A stretch of DNA of 64,000 nt from Desulfoplanes formicivorans (lineage in GTDB: Bacteria > Desulfobacterota > Desulfovibrionia > Desulfovibrionales > Desulfomicrobiaceae): contig NZ_BDFE01000020.1 in NCBI RefSeq assembly GCF_001748225.1, positions 62,001 to 126,000 of the forward strand, read 5' to 3'. This document shows positions 36,644 through 40,496 of this stretch, piece after piece. The notes under the pieces are model-generated. The model saw only the letters and a list, made by a program, of their open reading frames with translations. It did no database searches and was not told where the DNA came from. Position numbers and translations under genes: made by a program. Positions within the stretch are counted from its first letter, which is position 1, and each line of letters starts with the position of its first letter.

Positions 36644-36841
36644 CTAGAATTTTCGGGTCATGGGTGCCCCGCAACAGGGGCAAGGGATGGATTCGCAAGG
36701 TTTCCCCTTCTGGTGGGGTGAGGATGCACCGCATTGTCGGCAAAAGCACAGTGATCCGGGTTCGCTGTCCTCGACATGGGGTGTCGGGGAAGTTGAGGAC
36801 GTTTGAGGGTCTTTCCGGGTATGAGAAAAAGATGGGGGCAT
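36644..36841 (-). CDS. Small Cys-rich zinc-ribbon peptide in ORP-type operon
   Basis: This 65-residue peptide has a Ser/Thr/Pro-rich N-terminal half and a Cys-rich C-terminal half: CFCRQCG, then CESIPCPCCGAPMTR. The two C-x-x-C pairs suggest a zinc ribbon or a small metal site. It lies in the operon between the DUF5320 gene and the first MinD-like ATPase and ends 8 bases before the latter. AGGAAA precedes ATG 36841. I know no named family; it may be a small metal-transfer partner of the ATPases. Confidence 0.6.
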   Translation of the reverse strand: MPPSFSHTRKDPQTSSTSPTPHVEDSEPGSLCFCRQCGASSPHQKGKPCESIPCPCCGAPMTRKF

Positions 36842-36970
36842 GATGGTTTCCTGATGGTGCATGAGGGGGTTTGTGTCACAAGCAAACAGACCGTGCGGCC
36901 TGCACACGGCCTGTTGCCTGGTTGGTGAAACAATGTTTGTGGGTCTGTTCCCAATGAGACGGATTGGGAA

Positions 36971-38456: not shown

Positions 38457-38582
38457 AGGGGAGGCAAACAGACTGGCTAACCTGAGGGAAATAGGCTAAA
38501 GAGCCCCGCGTCAACGGGTTTTCAAGACGGCTTGTCCCATCAGAATGTTGCAGCGCCAATACGGCCAGGGAGGGGAACGTTC

Positions 38583-38957
38583 ATGCCATTACGCCATCAT
38601 GCAGAAAGAATCAGGATTTATGTCGGGGAAAACGATAAGTACGAAGGCATTCCGGTATATGAGCGGCTTCTTGCAACGGCTCAGTCCCTGGGCATGCCCG
38701 GCGGGACGGTAACCCGTGCCATTGCCGGGTTCGGGGTCCGCGGGGTTCGGACCAACAAGATCCTCCGCATTGCCGAAAACATGCCCCTGGTCGTGGAAAT
38801 GGTTGCCAACAGCGAGCATGTCCGTCCCTTTCTGGAGAGCATCCAACCCATGATTTCCGGGGGGCTGGTAACCCGTGAACCCGTGGAAGTGGTTTTCTAT
38901 CACCATGAGTCCCTGAAGGATGAGTCAACAACCACAAGCAAGGCGAGCACATCATGA
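38583..38957 (+). CDS. DUF190 family PII-like protein
   Basis: The 124-residue product has the DUF190 core: [31 protein letters not shown], then [15 protein letters not shown] and a [16 protein letters not shown] segment. DUF190 proteins share the fold of PII signal proteins and are often next to fluoride or ion channels; no channel is present here. It overlaps purT (ATGA at 38954), so the two are co-translated. AGGGGAACG precedes ATG 38583. Confidence 0.88.
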
Positions 38958-40135
38958 CTACCATTGGAACCCCCCTCTCACCCACGGCCACCAAGGTCCT
39001 TCTTCTCGGTTCCGGAGAACTGGGCAAGGAAGTGGTCATTGAACTCCAGCGACTCGGTGTGGAGGTCATTGCTGTTGACCGGTATGCAAACGGGCCGGCC
39101 ATGCAGGTCGCCCATCGTTCCTATACCCTGTCCATGCTGGACGGCACAAGGCTTCGCGAGATCGTGGAGCAGGAAAAGCCGGATTATATCGTCCCGGAGA
39201 TTGAAGCCATTGCCACGGATACCCTGCAGGAATTGGAGGACGAGGGCTTTACGGTCATTCCCACGGCCCGGGCCACCCGGCTGACCATGAATCGGGAGGG
39301 GATCAGACGGTTGGCGGCCGAAGAGCTTGGCATCAAGACGTCACCCTACAGGTTTGCCGCCACCAAAGAGGAATTTGTGCAGGCCGTCGAAGAGATCGGC
39401 ATCCCCTGCGTGGTCAAGCCCATCATGAGCTCGTCAGGCCACGGCCAATCGGCCGTGCGAAGCGAGGATCAGATAGAGGCTGCCTGGGAGTTGTCCCAGA
39501 GTGAGGGCAGGACCGGTGCGGGCGAGGTCATTGTCGAAGGCCTGGTGGATTTTGATTACGAGATTACCTTGCTCACGGTTCGCCATGTGGGCGGAACCTC
39601 CTTTTGTCGACCCATTGGTCACCGTCAGGAGAACGGGGATTATCAGGAATCCTGGCAGCCGCAACCCATGTCCCAGAACGCCCTCAGGGAAGCTGAACGT
39701 ATCGCCCGGACCGTGACCACGGCCCTGGGGGGATACGGCATTTTCGGGGTTGAATTGTTCGTCAAGGGGGATGAGGTCCTGTTCAGCGAGGTTTCTCCCC
39801 GGCCTCATGATACCGGCATGGTGACCATGATTTCCCAGGATCTTTCGGAATTCGCCCTGCATGCCCGGGCCATTCTCGGTCTTCCCATTCCGTCGATTGC
39901 CTTTCACGGTCCGTCAGCCTCAAGCGTCATCATTGCCCGCGGGGCATCGACTTCCACCACCTACGGGAATCTGAACAAGGCTCTGGAAGAACCCGATACC
40001 CAGATTCGTCTTTTTGGCAAACCCGAGGTCAAGGGACACCGCCGCATGGGTGTGGCCCTGGCCCGGAGCACTTCTGTTGAACAGGCCCGCGCAAAGGCCA
40101 ACAGGGCGTCTTGCGCCGTAACCATTACGTTGTAG
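38954..40135 (+). CDS. purT: Formate-dependent phosphoribosylglycinamide formyltransferase
   Basis: The 393-residue ATP-grasp enzyme makes formyl-GAR from GAR, ATP and free formate in purine synthesis. Typical segments are [57 protein letters not shown], and [15 protein letters not shown]. It does not need formyl-folate, which suits an organism that makes or uses formate. It is co-translated with the DUF190 gene and followed after 12 bases by the small selenoprotein. Confidence 0.96.
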
Positions 40136-40147
40136 GAAACACGGATT

Positions 40148-40411
40148 ATGATTATTGGACCAAAGAACGACCCCAACGATTCGAGCCATCATCTCAAGGA
40201 CAGGTCGCCCGGGCAAGGGACCGGCCGGAGCGGCCATGCCCGGTTTTTTTGCCTGCGCTGCTACGAGCCCCTTCAAACCGTCAGGACCTGACGCAACGTG
40301 GTGTTGCACTGCACGGCGTGCGGTGCTCAATATCAGTTGAGTCAATACGGACGGATGATCGAGGAGGATATGGAAGATTTTCTCGGCGACGTGCCGTGTG
40401 ACAGGTTGTAG
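40148..40411 (+). CDS. Small dual-CxxC selenoprotein (in-frame UGA read as Sec)
   Basis: The frame from ATG 40148 to TAG 40409-40411 is interrupted only by TGA at 40289-40291 (residue 48 of 87). Before it is F-C35-L-R-C38; after it, H-C55-T-A-C58-G. The two pairs form a zinc-ribbon-like layout, and Sec lies between them in VRT-Sec-RNVVLH. The frame after TGA ends in a coherent acidic helix (GRMIEEDMEDFLGDV). AGGAAA lies 8 nt before the ATG. Small dual-CxxC (seleno)proteins are annotated in related bacteria, with unknown function. A one-base frameshift is not needed, since both halves share one frame. Confidence 0.8.
40307..40325 (+). promoter_or_regulatory. SECIS-like hairpin of the small selenoprotein
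   Basis: Bases 16-23 after TGA (CACTGCAC) pair with 27-34 (GTGCGGTG), seven Watson-Crick pairs and one G-U, around loop GGC at 24-26. Stem length, loop sequence and distance from UGA are identical to the hairpin in fdhA, while the stem sequences differ, which argues for a shared SelB-binding element. Confidence 0.7.
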
Positions 40412-40452: not shown

Positions 40453-40496
40453 ACAATGGGCAGGAAGGGAACCCCCTTTTTGCCCATTGTTTTTTG
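40453..40496 (+). terminator. Intrinsic terminator after the selenoprotein gene
   Basis: ACAATGGGCA pairs with TGCCCATTGT, with an inner GGAAGGG/CCCCCTTTT arm, followed by TTTTTGT. It closes the DUF190-purT-selenoprotein unit. Confidence 0.88.

Follow-up and report, generated by a model that had tools for sequence, protein, structure and literature searches.

The closest described relatives of the protein discussed here are small selenoproteins with two CxxC pairs. A 2026 review (PMC13188914) lists the "Dual CXXC motif small protein (hypothetical protein OS_HP3), NF041197, RxU", and traces it to Zhang and Gladyshev 2007, the Olavius-symbiont study. In the deep-Sep work of 2025 (PMC12013277), OS_HP3 was missed in one genome by deep-Sep, and a "hypothetical protein DW" is listed as GxU together with NF041197. 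The curated cut-off of the NF041197 model is 40 bits. The existence of this model bears out the sequence-only reading of the DNA, which held that annotations in the lineage include related dual-CxxC (seleno)proteins.

The window, the whole stretch of Desulfoplanes formicivorans DNA that was analyzed, is 64,000 nucleotides long, and the positions of its relevant features are given in Table 1. The gene extends over 88 codons from ATG 40148 to TAG 40409–40411 with a TGA as the sole interruption, exactly where the sequence-only reading had placed it. Translation with the TGA as U gives an 87-residue product, MIIGPKNDPNDSSHHLKDRSPGQGTGRSGHARFFCLRCYEPLQTVRTURNVVLHCTACGAQYQLSQYGRMIEEDMEDFLGDVPCDRL, in which U is residue 48 and the Cys pairs are C35/C38 and C55/C58, again as claimed. 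The nearest upstream in-frame stop codon is the TAG of purT (40133–40135). As for the two signals supposed to frame the gene, a strong terminator-like hairpin is found downstream, whereas the ribosome site is present but weak (AGGA/GGAAA approximately 10 nt 5′ of the ATG). The prediction that gene callers would cut or miss the gene holds for plain ORF callers, and the plain ORF list of the window contains no ORF matching the 88-codon frame; NCBI, though, maintains a model dedicated to this family. The protein is probably cytosolic.

Table 1. Positions of the gene, its parts, and the adjoining features in the window
Feature	Position	Strand	Basis or remark
DUF190 gene, upstream	38532–38957		Pfam
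purT, preceding gene	38954..40135	+	Pfam ATP-grasp and PurT_C; order kept in the same-genus genome G299
Dual-CXXC small selenoprotein gene, NF041197 member	40148..40411	+	87 aa + stop; translation with TGA as U, profile score, relatives
Codons 1–34, N-terminal extension	40148..40249	+	Unconserved in alignments; low confidence in the model
First CxxC, C35-L-R-C38	40250..40261	+	Invariant in alignment
UGA, predicted Sec48, motif R-T-U-R	40289..40291	+	TGA or Cys codon in this column among relatives; flanking basic residues
Putative SECIS hairpin core	40306..40326	+	9 pairs, GGC apical loop (MFE); positions 17–25 pair with 29–37, T of TGA = 0
Second CxxC, C55-T-A-C58	40310..40321	+	Invariant in alignment
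C-terminal tail, C84-D-R-L	40397..40408	+	DR/NR conserved; Cys in most Sec members
Intrinsic-terminator-like hairpin, 3′ of the gene	40453..40490	+	17 pairs + T-run

The window gene is a genuine member of the known, catalogued NF041197 (OS_HP3) family, which occurs in sulfate reducers and related bacteria, and not a new kind of gene; the locus itself is an addition to the family, or in any case a member not remarked on before. Residues 35–87 of the product match profile positions 1–53 of 53 with a score of 66.6 bits, well above the cut-off, and the protein shares with the family the fixed spacing CxxC-x9-U-x6-CxxC, the RxU motif (R46-T-U48), and the DR-type tail. It differs in having a longer and unconserved N-terminal extension, with 34 residues before the first Cys compared with approximately 0–25 in most relatives in the alignments. 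C35, C38, residue 48, C55, and C58 are invariant in 46 aligned relatives, residue 48 being either Sec or Cys. Searches recovered the family from 253 of 297 genomes of the class and from 81 of 297 of the phylum; the 14 control genomes all lacked it. It is absent from several genomes of the class of 1.4–1.7 Mb in size, most of which are also without tRNA-Sec. The lone match of a scan of the whole collection with P0001, in Tabrizicola, is located inside another gene and was judged to be due to chance.

The UGA is almost certainly decoded as Sec48, judging from the relatives and from the decoding apparatus of the genome. Among the distinct copies in the set read out, the residue-48 column is occupied by TGA in 36 and by a Cys codon in 55. 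One in-frame TGA is present in 17 of the 20 above-cut-off copies in the taxonomic family of the window and none in the other 3, and the TGA form occurs at 48 of 65 places in the phylum sample. In the relatives, the reading frame continues across the UGA without a frameshift, and the alignment is unbroken beyond residue 48 up to the conserved tail, mostly (C)-D-R-(I/L/V); none of the refuting conditions named in the sequence-only reading therefore holds. The ortholog in the same genus (G299), located directly after purT, retains the TGA. Its differences from the window gene 3′ of the TGA number 9, 7, and 25 at codon positions 1, 2, and 3, respectively, a pattern characteristic of protein-coding selection past the "stop". 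With the frame retained 5′ and 3′ of the TGA within the genus, and with relatives from across the phylum aligned past it, the gene is far beyond chance. The genome possesses tRNA-Sec (C6:90470–90559, 82.4 bits) and SelB (409.7 bits), and a SECIS-like hairpin follows the UGA, all of which supports the selenoprotein proposed in the sequence-only reading. A plain ORF caller stops at the TGA, as would be expected if it terminated a 47-residue protein or if the downstream half were a separate gene or a pseudogene. Such an interpretation is hardly credible, being already contradicted, at the level of sequence, by the coding-type conservation past the TGA within the genus, by Cys at the residue-48 column in 55 relatives, and by the presence of the hairpin, tRNA-Sec, and SelB together.

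The distribution of tRNA-Sec was compared with that of the two forms. A tRNA-Sec is present in each of the 34 good-quality genomes tested that carry the TGA form, while 4 of 35 good Cys-form genomes are without one; 19 of the 31 genomes without a family match also have it. At least five switches between Sec and Cys are required by the best tree, two of which are forced by well-supported branches. Within one genus, a copy with a Cys codon and a CTGTCC loop (L038, genome G125) is found along with a copy with TGA and an AGGTCC loop (L042, genome G263); the pair represents a recent switch between Sec and Cys, accompanied by a difference in the SECIS loop.

The hairpin in the window, GCACUGCAC-GGC-GUGCGGUGC, is formed by the second-CxxC codons; its loop falls within ACGGCG, the six nucleotides that separate the two TGC codons (C55 and C58). 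The distance from the UGA to the loop region, taken as these six bases, is 21 nt, and the folding energy of 40286–40336 is −18.8 kcal/mol. Hairpins of TGA members are more stable than those of Cys members (Mann-Whitney p 2e-8, with sequences counted regardless of relatedness), and pairs in the expected register average 6.9 of 8 in Sec and 4.7 of 8 in Cys members. A G occupies the third loop position in all 36 TGA members versus 28 of 55 Cys members (Fisher 4.7e-8), and a CCN (Pro) codon follows C55 in 1 of 36 versus 34 of 55 (2e-9), relatedness being ignored in both tests. At the protein level, the residue after C55 is Arg or Lys in Sec forms and Pro in many Cys forms. A phylogeny-corrected test has no power, with just two supported independent Sec/Cys pairs. 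In many TGA relatives, the loop is TGC-AGGTCT-TGC or a close variant, which presumably resembles the SECIS loop of Escherichia coli fdhF.

A second dual-CxxC paralog is encoded in the genome (contig C4, + strand, from ATG 140771 to approximately 141000; approximately 7772–8000 in L081, also L033), after a Tim44-like gene. Its sequence, MAELTCIFCGGPAEIQGTUARGRVVCRSCHMDVPMAMYRDEIEAYKEAMC..., has the TGA at the same place as the window gene and a GxU motif, and its SECIS loop is AGGTCC. This paralog scores 27–36 bits against NF041197, below the cut-off, and automatic annotation by this model would therefore not name it. The phylum sample contains approximately 40 such sub-threshold copies, with TGA in every case except one. 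The dual CxxC with GxU fits the description of hypothetical protein DW, to which the second paralog may correspond, judging from the motif and the model listing; the window protein has RxU instead. In six genomes, the GxU gene lies within a few kilobases of dsrAB and/or dsrOP, and in three it lies a few tens of bases after topA, these neighbors being recognized by eye.

The surroundings of the window gene were also compared among the relatives. DUF190 and purT precede it, as the sequence-only reading had stated and Pfam matches confirm, and SlyX and serine dehydratase genes follow it. The implied link to purT and formate is not supported, since purT adjoins the gene solely in the genus of the window among the loci examined. 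A recurring neighbor family was sought upstream and downstream, and any one family occurs at no more than 4 of approximately 38 loci, in local clusters. No family recurs between lineages, and the neighborhood was rejected as a functional clue; in its behavior, the gene resembles a housekeeping gene that stands alone. One local cluster comprises six loci with Cys-form members that have an IIYD tail; pyrE precedes them, and their start either coincides with its stop codon or lies a few tens of nucleotides past it. Elsewhere in the window (36644–36907, − strand), a small ORF with two CxxC pairs (CRQCG...CPCCG) and no Pfam match is located beside genes of Mrp/NBP35-type ATPases.

An AlphaFold2 model was built on the alignment of 46 relatives. 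In the core, residues 31–60, the pLDDT values are 83–90, whereas the N-terminal 30 residues are unreliable and the pTM of the whole chain is 0.46. Strands 41–46 and 51–55 are modeled with U48 in the turn between them, followed by a short strand 61–63 and helices at 64–79. The best matches among solved structures in a Foldseek search are zinc ribbons, none at E ≤ 0.001. Pol III/Pol II ribbon subunits superimpose with rmsd of 1.2–1.9 over 31–35 residues (E > 0.001), and ZifS gives a probability of 0.97 but an rmsd of 12.8 and a TM of 0.34. A profile search of the PDB also gives zinc ribbons, namely YfgJ, HypA, eIF2 beta, and RPB12. ZifS of Thermus thermophilus (8yoz), the RPC10/RPB9-type subunits, and YfgJ have in common with the model a zinc-ribbon fold with two knuckles and a central hairpin; unlike the window protein, they have no Sec, and the resemblance is one of fold alone, no common sequence family being detected. 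The predicted strands and the Foldseek and profile matches agree on a zinc-ribbon fold, which is likely. By analogy with these structures, the hairpin tip with U48 would lie away from the zinc knuckles.

Taken as a whole, the observations are probably best explained by an 87-residue zinc-ribbon selenoprotein in which Sec48 is a redox nucleophile. SelB and tRNA-Sec would read the UGA as Sec under the guidance of the hairpin formed by the second-CxxC codons. As the fold and the motif suggest, the most likely task of C35, C38, C55, and C58 is to bind a single zinc ion, and this would provide the structural scaffold. Sec48, replaced by Cys48 in many relatives, would be placed at the tip of the central β-hairpin between Arg46 and Arg49, whose charges should favor an ionized, reactive selenolate, and would attack a thiol, a persulfide, or a similar substrate. 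Arg is found at position U−2 in 29 of 36 Sec and all 55 Cys members, and a basic residue at U+1 in 33 of 36 and 49 of 55, respectively. Both the position of the selenolate between two positive charges and the interchange of Sec and Cys suggest that the residue acts in redox chemistry or as a nucleophile, a role which we consider plausible, if slightly short of an even chance. C84 may resolve a selenenyl-sulfide, as a possible rather than universal partner, and this assignment is doubtful. Cys occupies tail position −4 in 28 of 36 Sec and 31 of 55 Cys members; its lack in several Sec members (about a fifth) led us to reject C84 as an obligatory partner.

The five invariant Cys/Sec positions in such a tiny protein would also suit joint binding of a metal or metalloid by Sec48 and the zinc ribbon, that is, a buffer or chaperone of zinc, selenium, or a heavy metal in which the selenolate is an extra soft ligand and not a redox catalyst. 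A stand-alone gene with no recurring neighbor is in line with such a function, and the GxU paralog is similar to the model of the "metal-binding double selenoprotein MbdU". However, the similarity to MbdU is weak, with an E of 0.005 and a score far below the cut-off, and the conserved basic pair around Sec suits binding of an anion or a substrate better than that of a cation, so that a metal buffer seems rather unlikely. The same Arg-rich tip could instead contact RNA or a polymerase, with Sec as a redox switch of the contact, in a zinc ribbon associated with nucleic acids, the ribosome, or a polymerase. The closest solved folds do include the Pol III/Pol II zinc ribbons and ribosomal eL43, and eIF2 beta and RPB12 are among the profile matches. 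These matches are, however, generic to zinc ribbons, those of the fold search all stay above E 0.001, and neighbor genes of this kind do not recur, which leaves this role quite improbable.

Returning to the zinc-ribbon selenoprotein with a nucleophilic Sec48, we suggest, tentatively and as one of the less likely parts of the proposal, that the zinc ribbon serves as a rigid arm presenting the selenolate at the hairpin tip. The reaction would be one of general housekeeping, shared by Desulfovibrionia-like classes and others in the phylum, and many cells would have both paralogous forms, RxU and GxU. If true, such a rigid-arm zinc ribbon would be a Sec architecture unlike those of thioredoxin-fold or metal-center selenoproteins. 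The switches between Sec and Cys, together with the codon choice linked to the hairpin, make the family a tidy case of an RNA structure shaping a protein sequence.
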